Source: Clostridium sp. (GTDB lineage: Bacteria > Bacillota > Clostridia > Clostridiales > Clostridiaceae). From it: a stretch of 35,458 nt of DNA. Each line of letters begins with the position of its first letter. The first letter of the stretch is position 1. The DNA is taken from NCBI GenBank assembly GCA_031292145.1, contig JARLHR010000235.1:1-35458 (forward strand), read 5' to 3'. The notes under the pieces are model-generated. The model had not been told where the DNA came from. It made no database searches and saw nothing but the letters and a program-made list of their open reading frames with translations. Shown in pieces: positions 5,465 through 34,169 of the stretch. The translations under genes were made by a program, and so were the position numbers.

Positions 5465-5740
5465 AAAATAAGTGCGTTGAAAAAGAAGAGTAAATGGTAT
5501 TTTAATTTTAAGAGATCTAGGGATGGTGTAAGCCTAGAATTTAAAGCTATTGAAGGAAGCTTTGGAGCAATAAATAGAAAGTTTGTTAACGTAGTATATT
5601 TATGGGGTTATTCCCTTAAAGATAGATGAGTGGATTAGTATAAAGTGTATTTTAAAGGGCATGCTTGGATTAATCAATTTAGGTGGTAACGCGGAAGTCA
5701 GCCTTTCGTCCTAGGTATTTTTAGGATGAGAGGTTTTTTT
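5465..5740 (+). promoter_or_regulatory. T-box leader (tRNA-sensing riboswitch)
   Basis: The parts appear in order. A GA-rich base and AGTA S-turn lie at 5481-5492, and the stem I distal region AGAGATCTAGGGATGGTGTAAGCC at 5511-5533. The specifier segment GAA-GGA-AGC is at 5552-5560, GGAGC at 5564-5568, the T-box core AGGTGGTAACGCGG at 5681-5694, and a terminator at 5702-5740. By the usual GAA-NNN-A/GC layout the specifier codon is GGA (Gly). Read one codon earlier it is GAA (Glu), which would fit gltX two genes downstream and the TGGT core, which should pair with an A73 discriminator. The first gene after it is thyX. Uncharged tRNA should permit read-through. Confidence 0.93.
5702..5740 (+). 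terminator. T-box attenuator terminator
   Basis: CCTTTCGTCCTA (5702-5713) pairs with TAGGATGAGAGG (5722-5733), followed by seven T. The left arm overlaps the sequence that pairs with the T-box core in the antiterminator. Confidence 0.93.
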
Positions 5741-24591: not shown

Positions 24592-25557
24592 ATGAAAAAG
24601 AAAAAAATTATATATATTGTAGGAGCTTTAGCAATCATAGGAGCATTAGCAATTGCATATGGTGTAAAACATTATTATAAAGGCAACGAAACAATAACTT
24701 CAAAAACAGACAGTGCACAAAGCAGTAAAGTAAATCTTGTAATAGACACAGAAAATAAAAATGTGTTGCCGAAAAACTTTAGAACTACCAAGGATGCAGT
24801 TAACAGTGAAAAAGCAGGAAGTGTTAATTTAAATGGACTATCTGACTTAAATGTTTCTGGCAGTGGTGCACTTTCAGAAAAAGGTTTAGCAATGGTGAAA
24901 GAAAAAATTGGTAATAGGCCTATTATGGATATTGATTTGCGCCAAGAAGACCATGGTTTTATTAATGGTATGGGTATAAGCTGGTTCGGAGAAAATGATC
25001 AAGCTAATAAAGATCTTACAAGAGAACAAGTTGTGGCTGATGAAAAAAATAAGCTAAATCAAATATCTGAGGACAAGCACGTTGCTTTTGATCAACTTCC
25101 TAAAGGTAAATCTGTAAATACAATTAAAGAAATTGATAATCCTGAGAGTGTACAAACTGAAGAAGAATTAGCGAAAAGCTTAGGAATGAGTTACTTGAGA
25201 ATTACTGTGACAGATCATGAAAAACCACTAGATGATCAAGTAGATTTATTTGTTGAATCAATAAGAAACCTTCCACAGGATATTTGGCTGCATTTCCATT
25301 GTAGAGGGGGAGCAGGTAGAACTACTACTTTTATGTCAATGTATGACATAATGCATAATGCAAAAAATGTGAGTTTTGAGGATATAATGAAACGCCAAAC
25401 TTTAATTGGAGGCTCAGATTTGTTAAAAGATGAGGATCAAGATGAAAATCAAGCTAGGCCAGATTTCATGAATATGTTTTATAACTATTGTAAAGAAAAT
25501 AAAGATGGATTCCAAACATCGTGGTCTCAGTGGCTTAAGGCGCATTCAAAAGAATAA
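24592..25557 (+). CDS. Cysteine (PTP-like) phytase / inositol polyphosphate phosphatase, membrane-anchored or secreted
   Basis: This 321-residue protein has an N-terminal hydrophobic segment (about residues 5-23, after MKKKK), a signal peptide or anchor without a lipobox. The catalytic P-loop is HCRGGAGRT with Cys237 and Arg243 (CX5R). The general-acid loop is VTDHEKP (Asp at about 205), and the region MDIDLRQEDHGFINGMG matches the substrate-facing block of PTP-like phytases such as PhyAsr of Selenomonas. These enzymes remove phosphates from myo-inositol hexakisphosphate outside the cell. A phosphotyrosine phosphatase role is the alternative. GGATTGGTG at 24578-24586 is a mediocre ribosome site. 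The PhoP-like repeat upstream fits phosphate scavenging. Confidence 0.88.
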   Translation: MKKKKIIYIVGALAIIGALAIAYGVKHYYKGNETITSKTDSAQSSKVNLVIDTENKNVLPKNFRTTKDAVNSEKAGSVNLNGLSDLNVSGSGALSEKGLAMVKEKIGNRPIMDIDLRQEDHGFINGMGISWFGENDQANKDLTREQVVADEKNKLNQISEDKHVAFDQLPKGKSVNTIKEIDNPESVQTEEELAKSLGMSYLRITVTDHEKPLDDQVDLFVESIRNLPQDIWLHFHCRGGAGRTTTFMSMYDIMHNAKNVSFEDIMKRQTLIGGSDLLKDEDQDENQARPDFMNMFYNYCKENKDGFQTSWSQWLKAHSKE

Positions 25558-25611: not shown

Positions 25612-25781
25612 CATGTGTCTTAAAATTAAAACTATAACTTTAGATGATTTTTTATGTAGGCAATAGATAGACAAATGTCAAATGTAATTCGGGAATTTTG
25701 GCGATAAATGTAATATTTTGAGTGAAATCTTTATGGAAAATTAATTTGATAATCACATACTATGTTGGTAAAATATTCATA

Positions 25782-25821: not shown

Positions 25822-27096
25822 ATGAAATTTGAAATAGAGAGTTTTTATAATCCGCATTTAAATCTACGAATCAAAAGAATTGATGCAATAGTATCTGTAA
25901 CTTCACAATTTGAAGGATTTGTAACTAATAATTCAGCAATGGAAAAAGCAATAGTATTTGTGCTAGATGTTTCTGGATCTATGATTGGTGGCAAGCTTCA
26001 AATGGGGAAGAGTGCTATTAGTAGATGTATTGAAATGTTAGATGAAAATAGCAAATTTAGTGTAATAACATTTCAAAATAAAGCAAAATTAATAGTACCA
26101 ATGACAAATGCGTCAACAATGGCAAAAAAAGAGGCCTTAAGAGCCATAAATACACTGGTAGCTGGAGGTGGAACTGAGATGTCTAAAGGCTTGAATACGG
26201 CGCTAGACCAGATCAGGGGGCTTGATAATACAATGGGGTTTGTACAATTTGTCACTGATGGAGATAATAATCCGGCAGATTATAATTCATTAGAAAGGGT
26301 GTTAAAAGAATGCGAAGGAAAATTTCAATGTAACTGTTGGGGTGTTGGAACAGATTGGAGGCCTAATGAGTTAAGAGAAATATCTGGAAGGTTACTTGGG
26401 TCAGCAGAGGCGGTACCTAACCCAGATGATTTAGAAGCACACTTTAGAACTGCATTAAATGATGCATTATCAAAGGGAGTTGCGGATGTATATTTAAGAA
26501 TACAACTTCCAAAAACATCAAAATTAGTAACAGTAAAACAAATGAGTCCCGAAATCCAAGATTTGATGATGCTAACAAAGAAGGCTGATGAAAAAAATAT
26601 AGATGTGCCTATAGGTGCATGGGGGGAAGAAAGTCGAGATTACCAATTAGGTTTTGAACTACAACCTCAAGATGAAGGGGAAGAAATGATGGCTTGTAGA
26701 ACTAAGATTGTTTATTCAGTTAATGGCCAAGAGGTAATAGTAGATGGACAAAGAATAATAGCAACATGGACTTCTGATGAATCTTTGACAGCTAGAATTA
26801 ATCCTCAAGTAGCTCACTATACTGGTCAAGAGGAACTTGCTAATTCTATAAAAGAGGGATTAGAAGCAAAATCTAGAGGAGATATTGATGAAGCTACAAT
26901 GTTACTAGGTAAGGCAGTTAAAATTGCTGTTGAATCTGGAAATGAAGAAGTAACTATGAGACTTAAGAAAGTTGTTGATGTAGTAGATGTAGAGCAAGGA
27001 ACAGTTAGATTAAAATCTGGAAATAATAAGGCGGCAGATTTAGAACTAGATATGGGTGGAACAAGGACAATTAGAAAGAGAAAAAATAATGGATGA
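25822..27096 (+). CDS. VWA-domain protein of a PknG-type signalling cassette
   Basis: This 424-residue cytoplasmic protein has a von Willebrand A domain (about 42-225) with a full metal site: D49-V-S51-G-S53, a Thr in GGGTEMSKG (near 117) and Asp in VTDGDNN (near 144). The rest (about 225-400) is a beta-rich domain plus a helical segment (EGLEAKSRGDIDEATMLLGK), as in VWA proteins that lie beside PknG, FHA and PP2C genes in Actinobacteria. The C-terminus ends DMGGTRTIRKRKNNG, a basic tail with two Thr that could be phospho-acceptors for the FHA reader (inference). It is the first gene of the six-gene run; its stop lies 13 bases before the FHA start. A complex-scaffolding role is likely; no enzyme activity is expected. 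Confidence 0.92.
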   Translation: MKFEIESFYNPHLNLRIKRIDAIVSVTSQFEGFVTNNSAMEKAIVFVLDVSGSMIGGKLQMGKSAISRCIEMLDENSKFSVITFQNKAKLIVPMTNASTMAKKEALRAINTLVAGGGTEMSKGLNTALDQIRGLDNTMGFVQFVTDGDNNPADYNSLERVLKECEGKFQCNCWGVGTDWRPNELREISGRLLGSAEAVPNPDDLEAHFRTALNDALSKGVADVYLRIQLPKTSKLVTVKQMSPEIQDLMMLTKKADEKNIDVPIGAWGEESRDYQLGFELQPQDEGEEMMACRTKIVYSVNGQEVIVDGQRIIATWTSDESLTARINPQVAHYTGQEELANSIKEGLEAKSRGDIDEATMLLGKAVKIAVESGNEEVTMRLKKVVDVVDVEQGTVRLKSGNNKAADLELDMGGTRTIRKRKNNG

Positions 27097-27109
27097 TAGA
27101 GGTGATTAT

Positions 27110-27904
27110 ATGACCTATGTATGCCCAAAGGGACATGTTTCAATAGATGCAGATTACTGTTCAGAATGTGGTGCTTTAATTGGACAATCTGTGATTAAAG
27201 CAGTTATGGAAGATTCAAATCTTAATGTAAGCAATGTTTCAAAGATTGCTTCAACTAATGAAAATCAATTATGCCCAGATTGTGGAACACCAAGAACTCA
27301 AGGAAGTAGATTTTGCGAAGCATGTAGACATGATTTTTATGAAGATAAAAAAGTTAATGAAGAAAAAAGTAGTGAGGCTGTTAGTGATTCTCAAAACCTT
27401 TCTAAAAAGCAAGGTAATAGTATAAAAGCAGAAACTCCAGTAGTAGAAAAAGAAGAATTAAAAAGTTCAGTGCAATTAAATAAATCAACATCAGATGAAT
27501 CTCTTAATCAATCAGTTAATATAGCTAATAAAGTAGACAAATTATCTGTAATCATATCAGTGGATAATTCAAGAATAAAGGAGGATCCAGAAATGAGTTC
27601 TGTATGTCCTGCTAATTCATCAGATAGGATATTTCATTTGGATTTAGATGAAAACTTATTAGGGAGAAGATCTATTGCAAAGGGAATTTCTCCAGAAATA
27701 GATGTAAATGATCCAGGAGCATCTCATAGACACCTAAAGTTTATTAAGAATATAAATGGAACTTTTGATGTGTTAGATTTGGGTTCAGCTAATGGAACAA
27801 CATTAAACGGAAAAGAATTAGAGGCAGGAGTACAAACAGAAATAAAAATAGGTGATGAATTATTTGTAGGCTTATGGACTAAAATAAGGGTAGCAAGACG
27901 TTAG
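27110..27904 (+). CDS. Zinc-ribbon FHA-domain protein (phosphothreonine reader)
   Basis: The protein has 264 residues from ATG 27110 (GAGGTG at 27099-27104; earlier in-frame starts overlap the VWA gene without a ribosome site). Two zinc-binding modules come first: C5-x3-H9 with C17-x2-C20, and C55-x2-C58 with C69-x2-C72. A Ser/Lys/Glu-rich linker follows (about 75-165), then an FHA domain (about 175-262). The phosphothreonine-binding residues are present: Arg in LLGRRSIA, Ser and His in ASHRHL, Asn in SANGTTLNG. In Actinobacteria the FHA protein GarA/OdhI is the main PknG target. This one has no GarA-like N-terminal ETTS motif, so it may instead be a docking subunit. Confidence 0.93.
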   Translation: MTYVCPKGHVSIDADYCSECGALIGQSVIKAVMEDSNLNVSNVSKIASTNENQLCPDCGTPRTQGSRFCEACRHDFYEDKKVNEEKSSEAVSDSQNLSKKQGNSIKAETPVVEKEELKSSVQLNKSTSDESLNQSVNIANKVDKLSVIISVDNSRIKEDPEMSSVCPANSSDRIFHLDLDENLLGRRSIAKGISPEIDVNDPGASHRHLKFIKNINGTFDVLDLGSANGTTLNGKELEAGVQTEIKIGDELFVGLWTKIRVARR

Positions 27905-27916
27905 CGGGGGGATGCA

Positions 27917-29317
27917 ATGAATACACAAATTAATAATTATGGTACAAATACCTCTAATAATACAATTAGAAATAGTGTTTTTGTGACTGAAGCAAAGAAG
28001 TACTTAAGAACTACACCAGGGAAAATTATTATTGCATCAATATCTATAATCATTGTGGCAATATTTATGTCTACAATTATATTTGTAGATTATAAAAGTA
28101 CGAGACAAGCAGTTCAGACGGTAGGAAAGGATACAGTACCTTCAATTATTGCTGCTGAGCATATAAGGGCAACTTTGGCAGATGCTAATTCAAATGCTAT
28201 GAATGCACTGATGACAAAGGAAAAAGATAATGGAATGTATTGGGCAACTTATAGAAAAGAGATGGACGAAGCTCATTCAGAGCTAATTGATGCTTCAGAA
28301 AATATCACTTATGGAAATGAAGAAAGAGATCCTATTCAGAAAATAATGTCAAAGATATCCGAATATGAATTTGTATTAGGAAAGGCAAGACTTACAACAA
28401 GTAATAATGTAGCTGATGATTTTGCGGAGGCAAATAAGATTATGAGTGAGGAAATATTACCTGCAGCTTCTGATCTTGATAAAGCAAATTATAGCCATTT
28501 AGATAGCATATATAGTGGTCATAAAGCCAAGTCAGGTGCTTTAACTTTTTCATTAATATGTGTAGTAGTAATAGCAATGGTAGCAATTTTATGGGTTCAA
28601 AGATTTTTATACAAAAAGACAAAAAGAATTTTAAATATAGGTTTTACTGCAGCGTTGGTATTAACTTTTATTTTTGGATGTTACTCATTTGGTGTAATTC
28701 AAGTAGTAGAAAAAAATTTAAAAGTAGCAAAAGAGGATGCATTTGATTCAATTCATAATCTTTGGAAAGCTAGGGCGATAACCTATGATGGAAATGCGGA
28801 TGAAAGTATGTATCTTCTATATTCAGGAAATAATCAGCAGCAGGAAGCATCATTAAAAGCTTTTAAAGATAAGGAAAGTCAAATAACTTCTGTAGAGCCA
28901 GATCAGGCATTAGCATTGTTAAATCAAAATAAAAGTTTTAAAGGTTTTTTAGGAGATGAACTTAGCAATGTTACTTTTGATGGGGAAAAAGATGCTGCTA
29001 CAGAAACACTTAAGTATTGGGATGAGTATATAAAAATGGACAGTAAATTTAGGAGTTTAGAAAATGATGGACACCATGATGAAGCAGTAAAGCTTTGTAC
29101 AGGTACTAGTGAAGGAGAATCAGATTGGTTATTTAATAAGTTTGATAGTGCACTGGGGAAAACTTTAGATATTAATCAAAAACAATTTGATAGCAATATA
29201 AATAGTGCTTTAAGTGCATTAAATGTTTTTCCGTTTATACTAGGAGCGTATTTAATATTATTTATTGCAGCAATATTTTTTGGTGTAAAGCCAAGATTAG
29301 ATGAATATAAATTTTGA
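27917..29317 (+). CDS. GlnX-like membrane sensor with two outward helical domains
   Basis: This 466-residue protein has four membrane helices (about residues 36-57, 206-228, 239-260 and 440-460), leaving two helical domains outside (about 60-205 and 262-438) and short cytoplasmic ends. The first domain has the pattern VGKDTVPSIIAAEHIRATLA and ENITYGNEERDPI, which I associate with the GlnX family encoded beside PknG in Actinobacteria. These domains resemble the four-helix bundles of chemoreceptors, but there is no HAMP or signalling coil, so it is not a chemoreceptor. The start ATG 27917 follows GGGGGG at 27904-27909. It probably transmits an outside signal to the PknG kinase. It ends 8 bases before the next start. 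Confidence 0.87.
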   Translation: MNTQINNYGTNTSNNTIRNSVFVTEAKKYLRTTPGKIIIASISIIIVAIFMSTIIFVDYKSTRQAVQTVGKDTVPSIIAAEHIRATLADANSNAMNALMTKEKDNGMYWATYRKEMDEAHSELIDASENITYGNEERDPIQKIMSKISEYEFVLGKARLTTSNNVADDFAEANKIMSEEILPAASDLDKANYSHLDSIYSGHKAKSGALTFSLICVVVIAMVAILWVQRFLYKKTKRILNIGFTAALVLTFIFGCYSFGVIQVVEKNLKVAKEDAFDSIHNLWKARAITYDGNADESMYLLYSGNNQQQEASLKAFKDKESQITSVEPDQALALLNQNKSFKGFLGDELSNVTFDGEKDAATETLKYWDEYIKMDSKFRSLENDGHHDEAVKLCTGTSEGESDWLFNKFDSALGKTLDINQKQFDSNINSALSALNVFPFILGAYLILFIAAIFFGVKPRLDEYKF

Positions 29318-29325
29318 GGTCTTGT

Positions 29326-30501
29326 ATGGATAGTGCAATAGGTGAACAAATATCATTTTGGAAGGAAAAACTTTTGACAATAAATCAAAATATTATGGAC
29401 TTAAATGATTTATCATCTTCAAAAATGCTTGAAGATAATCTCAATACTGGTAACTATATTGGGTTAACAGAAAAGAAAGCTTCAGAATGTGTAAGGATTA
29501 TTGATAAGCTTTTACAAAACTATTTTACTCTATCTAAGGTAATAGAAAAAGCACAGGATTTATATAATAAATCAACAATTTTTCGAAGCTATGATGACGA
29601 AATCAATTTTTTATTAAATGGAAAGTCTATTACTTTATATAAAGAAGATATACCAATAAATAATAGAGAGTTGCTATATGATAAAAATAAAGGGGATGAA
29701 ATCACTCCAAAGGAAACTTTAGAAATCATGGCTAAGGATTTTGAGAGGGCAAAATTAGATTTAAATTCTATAATTGAAGGTGAAGAAAATACTATAAAGA
29801 TATGTAGCAAAATGAGAGAAGAGATAAACGAATTGAAACTTGCAGCAACGAGTTTGGGAAAGGATGAACGAGTACTAGATAGATATATATCATCTTTAGA
29901 ATATTGTGAAAAAGACCCAATTGTTGGAGTAACTCAAATTCAAGAGATTAGCAAGGAAATATATAAGTTTAGAGATGAACTATATAAGAGTTTAAAGAAT
30001 AGTGAAGAACTAAATAGAGCTATAGAAGAGTATAGCAGTATTATTGAAAGAATTAAGAGAATAGTAGAAGTTAACAATAATTTTATTGTAGATAATAAAG
30101 AAATACTAGGGAAACTTGTTAGTTACAGAATTCCGGAGAAGGATGAAAAGTTACAGGAATTTCATAAGTGCATTGAAGATTTAAAATATAATTTATCTCT
30201 AAAAAGAATTTCTGATGTTAATATTGGAGTAAATAAATTATCACAACAGCTAGAGGCAAAATTAAAAGATGAAACAGATAAGCTTAAGGAGAATAGAGAA
30301 AAAGTTGAGTGTTTCAATGAGCTAAAAGGAAGACATACTGCATTAGAAGCCAAAATAAATATTATGCATATGAAAGGACATGATATACCGCCAAAAGTTT
30401 TAGAAATGCTAATTACAGTAAAAGAAAAACTTCAATCAAGTGAAGTTGATTTGTTAGAAGTAGACGAGTTGTTAAAGAAATTATATATTATGATGAAATA
30501 A
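29326..30501 (+). CDS. Soluble coiled-coil protein in the position of GlnH
   Basis: The protein has 391 residues from ATG 29326 (GAGGT at 29316-29320; the TTG at 29314 overlaps the preceding stop region and lacks a ribosome site). It is almost wholly helical, with heptad-like stretches at about 175-260 and 300-345, and no signal peptide, membrane helix or known domain. It is acidic to neutral and ends LLEVDELLKKLYIMMK. In actinobacterial PknG operons this place is usually held by GlnH, an amino-acid-binding lipoprotein; nothing here resembles a binding protein. A cytoplasmic adaptor between the GlnX-like sensor and the kinase is my inference. The TAA stop is the first three bases of a family A repeat. 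Confidence 0.85.
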   Translation: MDSAIGEQISFWKEKLLTINQNIMDLNDLSSSKMLEDNLNTGNYIGLTEKKASECVRIIDKLLQNYFTLSKVIEKAQDLYNKSTIFRSYDDEINFLLNGKSITLYKEDIPINNRELLYDKNKGDEITPKETLEIMAKDFERAKLDLNSIIEGEENTIKICSKMREEINELKLAATSLGKDERVLDRYISSLEYCEKDPIVGVTQIQEISKEIYKFRDELYKSLKNSEELNRAIEEYSSIIERIKRIVEVNNNFIVDNKEILGKLVSYRIPEKDEKLQEFHKCIEDLKYNLSLKRISDVNIGVNKLSQQLEAKLKDETDKLKENREKVECFNELKGRHTALEAKINIMHMKGHDIPPKVLEMLITVKEKLQSSEVDLLEVDELLKKLYIMMK

Positions 30502-30520
30502 GGCACATGAAAATAAATAG
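30499..30520 (+). repeat. Family A repeat, left half only
   Basis: The left half begins TAAGGCACATGAAAATAAAT and ends at 30520. The TAA is the stop codon of the coiled-coil gene. No right arm follows; the ribosome site of the kinase gene (AGGAGG, 30522-30527) comes at once. Confidence 0.7.
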
Positions 30521-30538
30521 CAGGAGGATTTGTTTTAA

Positions 30539-32710
30539 ATGGGTAATGTTGAGAGATGTCAACGTCCAGGATGTGATGGAATTATAGTTGATGGAATATG
30601 CGAAGATTGTGGTAGGCCTCCCGTTGGGAAAAGTGTCTTATCACAAGTTTTAAATACTAGCACAGTAAATGGAACAGCTACCTTTGCAACAGGTACAGTT
30701 GGTTCATCAAGAACTAGTAGTAGGAGACATACAAGTAGATCGAGTAGAGGGACATCCGCTAGAAGGAAAGCCCTTGGAGGTGGATTAGTATCATTACCTT
30801 CACAGCCAAGTCAAGATCCAATGAAGCTAGTAATGGAAGATCCAGTAGTTCCAGAAAGAAAGCGACGTTGTCCAAAATGTGAGGCTAAGGTAAATAGAAC
30901 AAAAGGTTTTTGTCCTAAGTGTGGGCAAGAATATTCTTTTGAACCTTCCTTAAGCAAAGGGGACATAATTAATGAAAAGTTTGAAGTAAAAGGTGCAATA
31001 GCCTTTGGTGGCTTAGGCTGGATTTACTTAGCTTATGATAATTTATTATCTAGATGGGTTGTACTTAAGGGATTATTAAATGCTAAGGATGAAGCAAGTG
31101 CGGCAGCAGCAGTGGCAGAAAGACAGTTCCTTGCAGCAGTCAAGCATCCCAAAATAGTCGGTATATATGACTTTATTCAAAATGGGAATGAAGGATATAT
31201 AGTTATGGAGTATGTAGGTGGACGTTCCATAGAAAGTATACGTAAGGAGAAAGGTGTTTTGCCAGTAGAAGAAGCTATATCTTATATACTAGGAATACTT
31301 CCAGCTTTTTCATACTTACACTCTAATGGATATATATATTGCGATTTTAAGCCAGATAATTTCATGTTAGAGGGCGAGGATGTAAAGCTAATTGATATGG
31401 GTGGAGTTAGAAAAGTAAATGATGCTGATGGTGATATTTATGGCACAAGGGGATATATGGCACCAGAGGCAGATGATAATCCAGACGAAGTTTCAGATAT
31501 TTATACTATAGGCAGGTCACTTGCAGTTCTAATAATGGATTTTAAATATCAAACAACTTATGAATACTCATTGCCAACTCCTAATGAGCAGCCAATTCTT
31601 GCTACATATGAAGCTTTATATAGATTTTTGCTTAGAGCTGCCCATGAAGATCCAAATCAACGCTTTCAGTCAGTAGATGAAATGAATGATCAGCTTTATG
31701 GGGTTTTAAGAGAGATTGTAGCTATGAATACTTCACCGAAACCTGCTGAAAGCCAAATTTTCACCAGCGATAATCTTTTAGACTCAGAAGATATAGCTGG
31801 AACTAAAAAGCCGGAAATAAGATTATTACCTATGCTAAAGCTTGATTTGAAGGATGCAGCATGTAATGAATTGATGAAATTATCTTCGATAACTAATCTT
31901 GAAAAAAGGATAGAAGCATATAAGAAGGTAGTAGATAAGTTTGGTGAAAAATCTGTAGAGGCCAGATTTAGATTGGCTGATGCTTATATTATGGCAGAAA
32001 AATATAATGAAGCAGAAAAAATATTATCAAAACTAGCAATAGAGGATGAATTTGATTGGAGGGTACAATGGTATAGAGGGAAGGGCTTTCTTAATATTGG
32101 CAATGGACAGAGGGCAAAAAGTGAATTTGGAAGGGTGTATTTTGAAATGCCAGGAGAGATCGCACCAAAGCTCGCAACAGCATTTGCCTGCGAAATTATG
32201 GAGAATATTGATGAAGCTATAAAGTATTATAATAGAGTTGTAAAGGTAGATCCTAATTATACTACTGCTTGTTTTGGACTAGCTAGGTGCCTTGTAAAAG
32301 AAGGCGATATAGAAGGTGCTTCAGATGCATTAAATCAAGTGCCTCAAAGTCATAGTATGTATACACAGGCACGAATTACTTTGGCAAAGGTATTAATGGA
32401 AGATGAAAGTAAAATTAATGAAGGTGTACTAGCTAAGATTAGTGATACTATTGAATCTATAAGTTATGAAGGAGAAGTATTACATGTGCTTGGTGCTAAG
32501 CTGTTAGCTACAGCTGTAAAATTGCTTGGTACAGGAGCTGTAAGCCAAAATTCAAATAGAAGAGTAATCGGACACTCTTTGGAGGAGAATACATTAAGAG
32601 CAGGAGCGGAAGCAGAGTATAGAAAGGCAGCAAAACTTGCAAAGAGTTTTGATGAAAAGGTAGAGCTAGTTAATATGGCAAATGAAATTAGGCCAGTTTC
32701 TTTATTTTAG
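30539..32710 (+). CDS. pknG: PknG-type serine/threonine protein kinase with zinc ribbons and TPR tail
   Basis: This 723-residue protein has the three-part PknG architecture. The N-terminal zinc ribbon C7-x4-C12...C21-x2-C24 (CQRPGCDGIIVDGICEDCG) is followed by a Ser/Thr/Arg-rich linker (about 40-80) and a second ribbon C111/C114/C125/C128. The kinase domain (about 140-395) has AFGGLGWIYLA, catalytic Lys177 (VVLKG), the non-RD loop YCDFKPDN (Asp269, Asn274) and LIDMGGV in place of DFG, all as in mycobacterial PknG. The TPR region (about 455-720) includes repeats such as EARFRLADAYIMAEKYNEAE. In mycobacteria PknG phosphorylates GarA to control 2-oxoglutarate use. The stop TAG is the first three bases of the next family A hairpin. 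Confidence 0.96.
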   Translation: MGNVERCQRPGCDGIIVDGICEDCGRPPVGKSVLSQVLNTSTVNGTATFATGTVGSSRTSSRRHTSRSSRGTSARRKALGGGLVSLPSQPSQDPMKLVMEDPVVPERKRRCPKCEAKVNRTKGFCPKCGQEYSFEPSLSKGDIINEKFEVKGAIAFGGLGWIYLAYDNLLSRWVVLKGLLNAKDEASAAAAVAERQFLAAVKHPKIVGIYDFIQNGNEGYIVMEYVGGRSIESIRKEKGVLPVEEAISYILGILPAFSYLHSNGYIYCDFKPDNFMLEGEDVKLIDMGGVRKVNDADGDIYGTRGYMAPEADDNPDEVSDIYTIGRSLAVLIMDFKYQTTYEYSLPTPNEQPILATYEALYRFLLRAAHEDPNQRFQSVDEMNDQLYGVLREIVAMNTSPKPAESQIFTSDNLLDSEDIAGTKKPEIRLLPMLKLDLKDAACNELMKLSSITNLEKRIEAYKKVVDKFGEKSVEARFRLADAYIMAEKYNEAEKILSKLAIEDEFDWRVQWYRGKGFLNIGNGQRAKSEFGRVYFEMPGEIAPKLATAFACEIMENIDEAIKYYNRVVKVDPNYTTACFGLARCLVKEGDIEGASDALNQVPQSHSMYTQARITLAKVLMEDESKINEGVLAKISDTIESISYEGEVLHVLGAKLLATAVKLLGTGAVSQNSNRRVIGHSLEENTLRAGAEAEYRKAAKLAKSFDEKVELVNMANEIRPVSLF

Positions 32711-32767
32711 GCACATGAAAATAAATAATAGACGAGCATACTGGTCTATTATTTTTTGAATTTGCTT
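32708..32767 (+). repeat. Family A hairpin between kinase and phosphatase genes
   Basis: TAGGCACATGAAAATAAAT (TAG is the kinase stop) leads to AATAATAGAC (32724-32733), pairing with GTCTATTATT (32744-32753) and then TTTTG. The right end is degenerate (GAATTTGCTT instead of GAATGTGCCT) and runs into AAGGAG (32769-32774), the ribosome site of the PP2C gene. The stem plus T-run resembles a terminator. Confidence 0.82.
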
Positions 32768-32783
32768 TAAGGAGTGTAAGATA

Positions 32784-33773
32784 ATGAATTGTAAAAAATG
32801 TGGAGAGCCTTTAAACGAAGGAGATATATTTTGTGAAGCATGTGGAACCAAGGTTAAATCAGAAGAATTATCAAATGGAGTTTCGAAGATTTTAAGGGAC
32901 AAGTTTTTTTGTAACTGTGGTTTAGGCAAGGGAGTACCAGATGAAGATGGATATTGTGAAATTTGCGGAATGAAAATGGTAGAAAAGCCTGAAAGGCAAT
33001 TAGAAGAGAAGGAAGAAGAAATTTCTAAAGAACTAGCTATGGTTTCAAATATAGGAAAAAGGCATATTGATAATGAAGATTCAGGAAGAGTTCTTATTAG
33101 TAAAAAGGGAGCAGAAATTTTAATTGTTGCTGATGGCGTATCTTCATCAATAAATGCTACGAGTGCTTCTAGTAAAGCGGTACAAATTGTAGGAGATATT
33201 TTAATGGAGTATGACTTTGGTCAAGATCCAGAGGAATTAATAATTAAATCCATTGATACTGCTCATAAAGCAATAATGGACTTGACAAGTGATGAGGAAA
33301 CAAAAGAATGTGACGGTCCTGAGACTACAATTGTAGCAGCTATAAATGACGAGGATCAAATTATAATTGGATGGGTTGGAGACAGCAGGGCATATTTAAT
33401 AGATGAAAATAAAGAAATGCAATTAACAGTAGATGACTCTTGGGTTGAAGAAATGATTAGAGATGGACAACTAACAAGAGAAGCAGCTATGCATGATAAA
33501 AGAGCTCATTACATTACTCAGGTTCTTGGAATGAAAGATGATGATATAGATATTCATACTATTAAAATACAAAATAAAACGGAAAAGATGTTATTACTTT
33601 GTTCAGATGGCTTATGGAATTATTTCCAAAGAGAAGGTGAGTTTGCCAAAGTTATAAGTGATTATAAAAATAAAAAAGCCTTAACATTATGCCATTCTTT
33701 GGTTGATAAAGGAAATCTTTGTGGAGGGCATGATAATATAACAGTGGCTATACTTATGTCAAAAGGGAAATAA
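32784..33773 (+). CDS. Zinc-ribbon PP2C-type protein phosphatase
   Basis: This 329-residue protein has two N-terminal zinc ribbons (C3/C6/C17/C20 and C43/C45/C58/C61). The second (GVPDEDGYCEICG) resembles the first ribbon of the neighbouring PknG. An acidic linker leads to a PP2C domain (about 85-328). The metal ligands are in NEDSGRV, VADGVSS (normally DGMGG), GWVGDSRAYLI, CSDGLW and GGHDNITV. Such Mn/Mg-dependent enzymes remove phosphate from Ser/Thr and are the natural opponents of Hanks-type kinases. There is no membrane segment, so it should act in the cytosol. AAGGAG at 32769-32774 precedes ATG 32784. The TAA stop lies inside a family A repeat. Confidence 0.94.
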   Translation: MNCKKCGEPLNEGDIFCEACGTKVKSEELSNGVSKILRDKFFCNCGLGKGVPDEDGYCEICGMKMVEKPERQLEEKEEEISKELAMVSNIGKRHIDNEDSGRVLISKKGAEILIVADGVSSSINATSASSKAVQIVGDILMEYDFGQDPEELIIKSIDTAHKAIMDLTSDEETKECDGPETTIVAAINDEDQIIIGWVGDSRAYLIDENKEMQLTVDDSWVEEMIRDGQLTREAAMHDKRAHYITQVLGMKDDDIDIHTIKIQNKTEKMLLLCSDGLWNYFQREGEFAKVISDYKNKKALTLCHSLVDKGNLCGGHDNITVAILMSKGK

Positions 33774-33844
33774 GGCACATGAAAGAAAATAACAAGTCCG
33801 CAATATGTTTGAAGATGGACTTGTTATTTTTTGAATGTGCCTAA
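33771..33844 (+). repeat. Family A hairpin ending the PknG cassette
   Basis: TAAGGCACAT (33771-33780, TAA is the PP2C stop) pairs with ATGTGCCTAA (33835-33844). Inside, AAAATAACAAGTCC pairs with GGACTTGTTATTTT around a 17-base centre. The long stem with an internal T-run should also terminate transcription. Confidence 0.88.
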
Positions 33845-34005: not shown

Positions 34006-34169
34006 TAAGGCACATGAAAAAAAATAATAGACCAAAGATGCGAAGTATATTTTGCGCCAGACAAAGAAGCAATTTATGCTCATAGCGGGCCTATTAGGTT
34101 AAATTGCTGATGCAGTATGGTGCAAAATAGGCAAGCATACTAGTCTATTATTTTTTTGAATGTGCCTAA
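34006..34169. repeat. Family A repeat, long nested copy
   Basis: The ends are TAAGGCACAT (34006-34015) and ATGTGCCTAA (34160-34169). Next come AATAATAGAC and a TCTATTATT right arm, then further inward ATTTTGCGCCA/TGGTGCAAAAT and AGCAATTTA/TAAATTGCT, with CCTATTAGG near the centre. The 164-nt unit can fold almost completely on itself. It lies between a possible promoter and the lipoprotein gene. Confidence 0.82.

Follow-up and report, generated by a model that had tools for sequence, protein, structure and literature searches.

The window analyzed here, the whole 35,458-nucleotide stretch of contig JARLHR010000235.1 from Clostridium sp., carries a six-gene set built around a PknG-type kinase. 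Its closest kin is a seven-gene PknG cassette found in many actinomycetes. As judged from sequence, the kinase, phosphatase, reader and VWA protein retain intact functional sites and, together with a GlnX receptor bearing two outward four-helix bundles and a helical protein, are linked both here and elsewhere. We give an even chance to the reading that the Clostridium set is a branch of the seven-gene cassette that lacks GlnH and acts as a self-contained, GarA-independent membrane phospho-switch.

Gene layout and features

The six open reading frames (ORFs) lie on the + strand from 25822 to 33773, all intact and co-directional, in the order VWA-FHA-GlnX-CC-PknG-PP2C (CC denotes the helical protein), with GlnH absent from the set. 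Intergenic gaps are 13, 12, -4, 37 and 73 bp from 5' to 3'. The features were placed as follows:

25746..25774, +, candidate sigma-70-type promoter directly upstream of the VWA gene (10/12 consensus matches, TG before the second hexamer)
25822..27096, +, VWA protein, 424 residues (Pfam VWA_3 with a VWA_3_C tail)
27110..27904, +, double zinc-ribbon FHA protein, 264 residues (Pfam FHA and zinc ribbon)
27659..27862, +, FHA domain (PF00498)
27917..29317, +, GlnX-family membrane sensor (above the NF058618 cut-off; four membrane helices, two extracellular four-helix bundles, short cytoplasmic ends)
29314..30501, +, helical/coiled-coil scaffold-like protein, 395 residues (no Pfam family; beside PknG in most loci)
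30539..32710, +, PknG-type kinase, 723 residues (PF16919, PF00069, PF16918; solved structure 2pzi; tree)
30557..30613, +, N-terminal zinc ribbon of the kinase (C7, C12, C21, C24)
30731..30733, +, Thr65 codon of the kinase (conserved Ser/Thr in a basic N-terminal tail; predicted autophosphorylation and FHA docking site)
30764..30952, +, rubredoxin-like domain of the kinase (PF16919)
31841..32701, +, TPR domain of the kinase, predicted GlnX docking surface (PF16918, 1e-57)
32784..33773, +, zinc-ribbon PP2C phosphatase, 329 residues (PF13672/PF00481 and zinc ribbon)

Pfam matches for five of the six products were far beyond chance, and the helical protein had none. For the FHA gene, the start at 27110 is likelier than the mechanical GTG at 27056. 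The promoter call is weak, since a consensus scan alone gave 58 promoter-like sites in the region against 48.6 (standard deviation 7.6) expected.

An earlier sequence-only reading of the window had described six same-strand genes with short gaps and these product types, and span, strand and domains were all confirmed. It had also called the set complete in sensor, writer, reader, eraser and scaffold. The six proteins are present, but the label needs qualifying, since the actinomycete cassette also includes the solute-binding GlnH; no linked GlnH was found among the profile hits of the window, the remainder of the genome not having been searched for it.

Conservation of the cassette in other genomes

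Named-species genomes were scanned with a four-sequence PknG alignment, which gave at least 585 relatives. The best 80 of these were kept and, together with three plasmid loci and the window, make up the 84 PknG loci used throughout; all cassette counts therefore lean towards the kin of the window. Profiles of the window proteins, plus one of a Nonomuraea GlnH, were used to seek partner genes in all ORFs of the loci. The FHA genes were found with a profile of the FHA domain only, since zinc ribbons are common to the FHA and PP2C genes. A locus was considered well flanked when its kinase gene had 6 kb or more of sequence before it and 5 kb or more after it (n = 59).

GlnX, the helical protein, PP2C, VWA and FHA were all found beside PknG in 52 of the 59 well-flanked loci, so the gene set is conserved in other genomes. 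GlnH was also present in 48 of these 52 full cassettes (without it: L077, L113, L122 and L047), and the seven remaining well-flanked loci were without one or more of the five partners (L065, L054, L051, L107, L111, L044 and L045). The order GlnX-GlnH-CC-PknG-PP2C-VWA-FHA was seen in 48/84 loci, many of the others being cut by contig ends, and the order CC-PknG-PP2C-VWA-FHA-GlnX-GlnH in five (Nonomuraea, three Actinomadura and Actinoallomurus). One Streptomyces locus with a GlnX match (L046) was set aside, as there was no PknG within its 17 kb. Compared with actinomycete cassettes such as L055, L058, L063 and L078, the Clostridium set has the same six proteins, domain plans and active sites (identities of 38-41% for PknG and 21-24% for GlnX), whereas the actinomycete loci have GlnH and another gene order. 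Searches of the PubMed Central (PMC) literature yielded no published name for the seven-gene cassette.

The Clostridium order without GlnH also occurs in Trinickia fusca (L047) and, up to the point where the contig stops, in the Nitrospiraceae metagenome-assembled genome (MAG) UBA9159 (L053). Both come from other phyla, GlnH was seen in neither, and their kinases are sisters of the window kinase (48% and 69% identity, respectively). MAG loci are named here after their record titles, MAG bins can contain foreign contigs, and L053 ends inside PknG with its GlnX and PknG frames broken; Trinickia fusca is an isolate. Across the 84 loci, the VWA, FHA, GlnX and helical proteins each rank L053 first and L047 second by bit score. 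The kinase is nearest L053 by identity (over a 401-residue piece) and by tree, with its best full-length scores at L047 and L048. Since four partners and the kinase share these nearest kin, most of the Clostridium set looks inherited together; the phosphatase, whose gene is cut off in L053, is undecided.

The PknG-type kinase

The sequence-only reading assigned the kinase to PknG, and the rubredoxin-like domain, non-RD kinase domain and TPR tail of that family are all present. PknG_rubred, Pkinase and PknG_TPR scored 67.5, 115 and 195.9 bits, each above its Pfam cut-off, and the solved PknG 2pzi aligns to residues 78-723 (E 1.7e-122). The score on the PASTA kinase model NF033483 (PrkC/Stk1) was 129.7 bits against a cut-off of 450. 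The catalytic K, E, D, K, N and D-x-G are identical in all 84 PknG rows, and D269 is preceded by Cys in 75 of them and by Asn in the other nine, i.e., a non-RD loop. The four rubredoxin cysteines are kept in 83/84 rows.

A kinase-domain tree was built from 48 rows, covering every non-actinomycete locus, one in three of the actinomycete loci and at most five additional ones; the row of L129, a kinase of the same Clostridium genome, was left out because of its short length. The 41 PknGs, the window kinase included, separated at 100/100 from seven other kinases, four of them from the same Clostridium genome, the outgroup rows forming long branches; this agrees with the assignment. Within PknG, the window kinase paired with L053 at 100/98 and then with L047 at 99/98, inside a wider clade (100/99) with Myxococcota, Verrucomicrobiota, Cyanobacteriota, Acidobacteriota and Armatimonadota rows. 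Four Hanks-type kinase domains were observed on contigs C104, C97, C198 and C195 of the same genome (L129, L130, L132 and L133), in frames of 1735-1975 residues.

The N-terminal cysteine ribbon had been taken as diagnostic of PknG, and this did not hold. Each of its cysteines is present in 76-78 of the 84 rows, and the ribbon is absent in L044, L045, L107 and L111, all of which are without cassette partners. Its pattern is likewise absent in seven canonical or solitary Mycobacteriales copies (L198-L204) and thus from most of the three-gene and solitary PknGs examined. The ribbon appears to go with cassette-type PknG mostly and not strictly, because the three-gene locus L207 has the pattern and the cassette copy L206 does not.

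Position 65, in the basic N-terminal tail ahead of the rubredoxin domain, is Thr in 49 and Ser in 29 rows (78/84). In mycobacterial PknG, Thr23, Thr32, Thr63 and Thr64 of this tail anchor the FHA domain of GarA (PMC8546545), and docking of the Clostridium FHA protein on the Thr65 region is predicted on that basis. The TPR domain has been proposed as the docking surface for GlnX (PMC6069109, PMC8546545).

Membrane sensor and accessory proteins

The sensor was assigned to the GlnX subfamily by model NF058618 (271.4 bits, cut-off 250) and fell far below the PknG-activating GlnX equivalog NF041460 (90 against 780 bits). As a control, the canonical GlnX of Mycobacterium sp. OAS707 (L198) passed both models, with 835 bits on NF041460; the Trinickia copy, trimmed, scored 230.9 on NF058618, just under the cut-off. 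NCBIfam holds a broad GlnX family, so GlnX is known to its curators beyond mycobacteria. Pfam reported 4HB_MCP_1, and hydropathy placed the membrane helices at 37-55, 209-227, about 238-264 and 437-455. The AlphaFold2 model (predicted local distance difference test 93.4) gave structural matches to four-helix bundles. A topology with four membrane helices, as placed by hydropathy here, has been described for C. glutamicum GlnX (PMC9769921).

In the VWA protein, the D, S, S, T and D of the metal ion-dependent adhesion site are identical in 70/70 rows, and a solved homologue was matched at E 3.2e-67 (4fx5). The PP2C metal-site residues N97, D99, D117, D200, D275 and D317 are identical in 71/71 rows; on the Stp1/IreP model NF033484 the phosphatase scored 165 bits, below the cut-off of 230. 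For the helical protein, Foldseek gave no match at E 0.001, and a PDB profile search with the family returned matches of coiled-coil type only. The top structural match, EzrA, was rejected as being at noise level for helical proteins.

Evolution of PknG operons

The canonical GlnX-GlnH-PknG operon comprises three genes conserved in Actinobacteria (PMC6069109), and a study that mapped the distribution of PknG describes it as mostly actinobacterial, with Ktedonobacter and Calothrix named outside (PMC8546545). The sequence-only reading used this mycobacterial and corynebacterial system as its reference. Family kinship with it was upheld: the PknG domain plan (minus the rubredoxin domain in corynebacteria), an FHA partner, and GlnX with four membrane helices, two extracellular bundles and a short tail are shared. 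The closest kin, however, is the seven-gene cassette. In contrast to the three-gene system, the Clostridium set is without GlnH and has four more linked genes (VWA, FHA, PP2C and helical), its kinase has an extra zinc ribbon, and its FHA protein carries ribbons and lacks the acceptor motif of GarA.

In a full-length PknG tree (60 rows, quick method, midpoint root), 12 canonical or solitary PknGs formed two groups, Mycobacteriales and Pseudonocardiaceae, among the cassette PknGs. A cassette and a canonical copy occur together in Mycobacterium sp. OAS707, three Nocardia (L200, L202 and L204) and Kibdelosporangium; GlnX and GlnH accompany each of those canonical copies, and the remaining four partners are absent from the 20 kb retrieved. 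In OAS707, one genome holds the canonical three-gene operon at L198 and the seven-gene cassette at L078. Some of the two-operon Nocardia also have solitary PknG genes (L199, L201 and L203), and a solitary PknG gene on a plasmid of Nocardia sp. NBC_00511 (L045) lies near an NAD-glutamate dehydrogenase gene. Because canonical PknGs fall inside the cassette tree twice, we infer from this unrooted topology that the canonical operon may be a stripped-down cassette.

The FHA reader and a GarA-like role

The phosphothreonine pocket of the FHA protein (G185, R186, S205, H208 and N228) is kept in 56-65 of 65 rows, position 208 being H in 56 and Q in eight. GarA and OdhI carry an ETTS-type acceptor motif N-terminal to the FHA domain (PMC8546545). 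By a simple pattern search, [DE][STV]T[ST] was not found in the window protein, and no Ser/Thr column is conserved in the linker across the 65 rows. The score on the OdhI equivalog model was 26.7 bits against a cut-off of 200. Two FHA proteins were detected in the genome, i.e., the cassette copy and a 150-residue frame elsewhere. The C-terminal domain of the 2-oxoglutarate dehydrogenase E1 subunit was not found in this genome and was present in 6/14 control genomes, and matches to the glutamate dehydrogenase family were marginal. The enzyme targets of GarA/OdhI were therefore not clearly detected, and the GarA/OdhI output route has no clear target among the two enzymes sought in this incomplete assembly. 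The doubt over a GarA-like target voiced in the sequence-only reading was borne out as far as it was tested.

These results bear on the alternative that the Clostridium set tunes glutamate/2-oxoglutarate metabolism with its FHA protein as a functional GarA. The kinase and GlnX are true family members, and the distant solved matches of the FHA domain include OdhI and GarA (1.3e-4 to 1.8e-3). In addition, the cassette may well do the work of GarA signaling in some actinomycetes, e.g., Cellulomonas and Nocardioides (one match each), because the only PknG there is of the cassette type. The alternative is nevertheless unlikely for Clostridium, given that no GlnH, acceptor motif or 2-oxoglutarate dehydrogenase was found, and given the marginal glutamate dehydrogenase-family matches, the low OdhI score and the side-by-side occurrence of a canonical operon and a seven-gene cassette in OAS707.

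Distribution in Clostridium and flanking sequence

PknG_rubred was detected in one of 68 genus genomes, that of the window, and above cut-off in one of 398 phylum genomes (with three weak partial matches below it). Among 391 class genomes, the window's own was the only one with full-length PknG_TPR; 16 others gave weak partial matches, three of them above cut-off. GlnX was above cut-off in one of the 68 genus genomes, and 17 others gave weak matches (at most 33 bits), seemingly in frames of chemoreceptor length. The genus, class and phylum sets overlap and all contain the window's own genome.

The contig itself is not foreign, as judged from its flanks, because the phytase gene before the cassette (78% protein identity to G023) and the lipoprotein gene (72% to G065) are genus-native; the flanking genes also align as DNA at 77-85% to their best relatives. 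Third-position G+C is 0.196 in the cassette and 0.197 in the other measured window genes, so recent transfer as judged from base composition was rejected. Comparison with an empty site was uninformative, since the flanking genes are scattered across the regions of seven relatives without a common order. No match was found in phage records at 1e-25, nor among viral contigs in a scan reaching close relatives only, and the five plasmid records with matches are all actinomycete. For the few non-actinobacterial PknG cases known to its authors, one study favored ancestral presence with losses (PMC8546545); either transfer or ancient loss could account for the Clostridium set.

Several neighboring elements were also observed. 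The gene directly before the cassette (24592-25557) encodes a PTP-like phytase (XopH-like below cut-off, 199.8 against 500 bits). It is probably unrelated to the cassette because phytase matches occur in 46 of 67 genus genomes, its own included. Two copies of a palindromic element with AGGCACATGAAA ... AATGTGCCT ends lie directly behind the cassette (33772-33844 and 34007-34169) and may be a small mobile or terminator-like repeat. The intergenic stretch at 35254-35458 matches three places in the 20 kb region of one relative and one in another (72-75% DNA identity) and looks like a dispersed repeat. A T-box leader at 5468-5716 (117.5 bits) precedes thyX, a NUDIX gene and gltX, as the genes were named from their ORFs, and suggests tRNA-dependent control of an operon that contains thymidylate synthase.

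Discussion

The six-gene finding is real, and the core of the sequence-only interpretation survives, the interpretation as a whole being partly supported. The PknG grouping, the conserved gene set and the doubt over GarA stand; the reference system, the completeness of the set and the ribbon as a diagnostic feature had to be revised, and the target is probably not GarA-like. If the set is a GlnH-less phospho-switch, GlnX would be bound by a small molecule or by a solute-binding protein whose gene lies elsewhere, and its conserved inner loop (R237, N240) and RLxEY tail would relay its state to the TPR domain of PknG. The kinase would then autophosphorylate its basic N-terminal tail in the Thr65 region, the FHA protein would dock on the phosphorylated tail, the VWA and helical proteins may hold or extend the complex, and PP2C would reset the switch. 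Because the GarA acceptor motif is absent and the GarA/OdhI targets were not clearly detected, the switch most likely acts by recruiting or phosphorylating other clients, and not by inhibiting 2-oxoglutarate dehydrogenase.

Several observations weigh against this reading. The acceptor pattern, sought as a simple pattern only, is present in 3/65 FHA relatives. Three ELFV (glutamate dehydrogenase family) matches were found in the genome (21-24 bits, frames of 390-411 residues), two of them just above the cut-off (24 and 23.5 against 23.4 bits); as partial matches over positions 6-93 of 241, these are probably other Rossmann enzymes. Absences do not amount to proof in a genome that is 95.85% complete and split into 282 contigs, and the enzyme-target search covered 2-oxoglutarate dehydrogenase and glutamate dehydrogenase and not glutamate synthase (GOGAT). 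The phosphatase shows no affinity to L053 or L047, its best matches being actinomycete (L110 and L091, 165 bits). For most loci, homology of the helical protein depends on an iterated profile; with direct BLASTP six loci are reached, and the comparison with the Nonomuraea copy was not significant. Finally, the Thr65 position is Ser in 29 of the 84 rows, whereas FHA domains bind phosphothreonine.

An improbable alternative is that the rubredoxin domain, the kinase ribbon and the FHA and PP2C ribbons sense metal or redox state and so adjust the activity of PknG. Cys4-type ribbons do occur in three of the six proteins and are conserved in most rows; however, zinc ribbons are also common protein-protein modules, and the membrane receptor is the sole obvious input. 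Activity of recombinant PknG was altered via its rubredoxin metal site (PMC6069109) and PknG has been placed in a redox homeostasis system (PMC4401782), but corynebacterial PknG functions without a rubredoxin domain (PMC8546545).

A role in conflict or anti-phage defense, as a system of the VWA-PP2C-kinase type, is considered very unlikely. The VWA, PP2C and kinase genes stand together, as in the TerY-P triad, and are sporadic across phyla; here, though, the kinase is a PknG with GlnX and FHA partners. PADLOC models matched the kinase (PD-T4-6, best 1.1e-38) and, in one case, the phosphatase (PDC-M21C, 5.8e-9). This defense-system reading was rejected as the kinase matches reflect the general kinase domain, and the VWA, FHA, GlnX and helical proteins had no PADLOC match. 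The phage and viral searches above were likewise negative, and the cassette is found in many actinomycete families. Assembly contamination, or a recently acquired and decaying passenger, would fit the single occurrence among 68 genus genomes and a contamination estimate of 4.63%, but is scarcely credible, contamination being rejected on the genus-native flanks on both sides of the cassette and decay being at odds with six intact ORFs and active sites and matching third-position G+C.

A broader scenario is put forward tentatively, as a possibility that we hold with less confidence than the GlnH-less switch itself. PknG signaling may have begun as a GarA-independent, seven-part phospho-switch, now present outside Actinomycetota in at least seven phyla (by loci that have two or more partner genes). 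The mycobacterial GlnX-GlnH-PknG operon would then be a stripped remnant, minus phosphatase, VWA, ribbon-FHA and helical proteins, that was redirected to GarA, and the Clostridium branch would have dropped GlnH and would read a different signal directly through GlnX.

Neither a PknG set with VWA, FHA and PP2C partners nor a clostridial PknG was described in the PMC literature searched, including the available parts of PMC8546545, PMC9769921, PMC6069109 and PMC1262709 (supplementary and subscription papers were outside this scope). Work on PknG has centered on its control of mycobacterial and corynebacterial glutamate metabolism. A clostridial PknG with its own partners suggests a larger linked machine whose other parts are undescribed in that literature, and the occurrence of the set here, minus the customary amino-acid-binding sensor protein, hints at PknG signaling wider than mycobacterial glutamate control. 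The cassette provides candidate partners and a way to understand the two PknG operons in one Mycobacterium, and the GlnH-less receptor allows the input to GlnX to be studied by itself.

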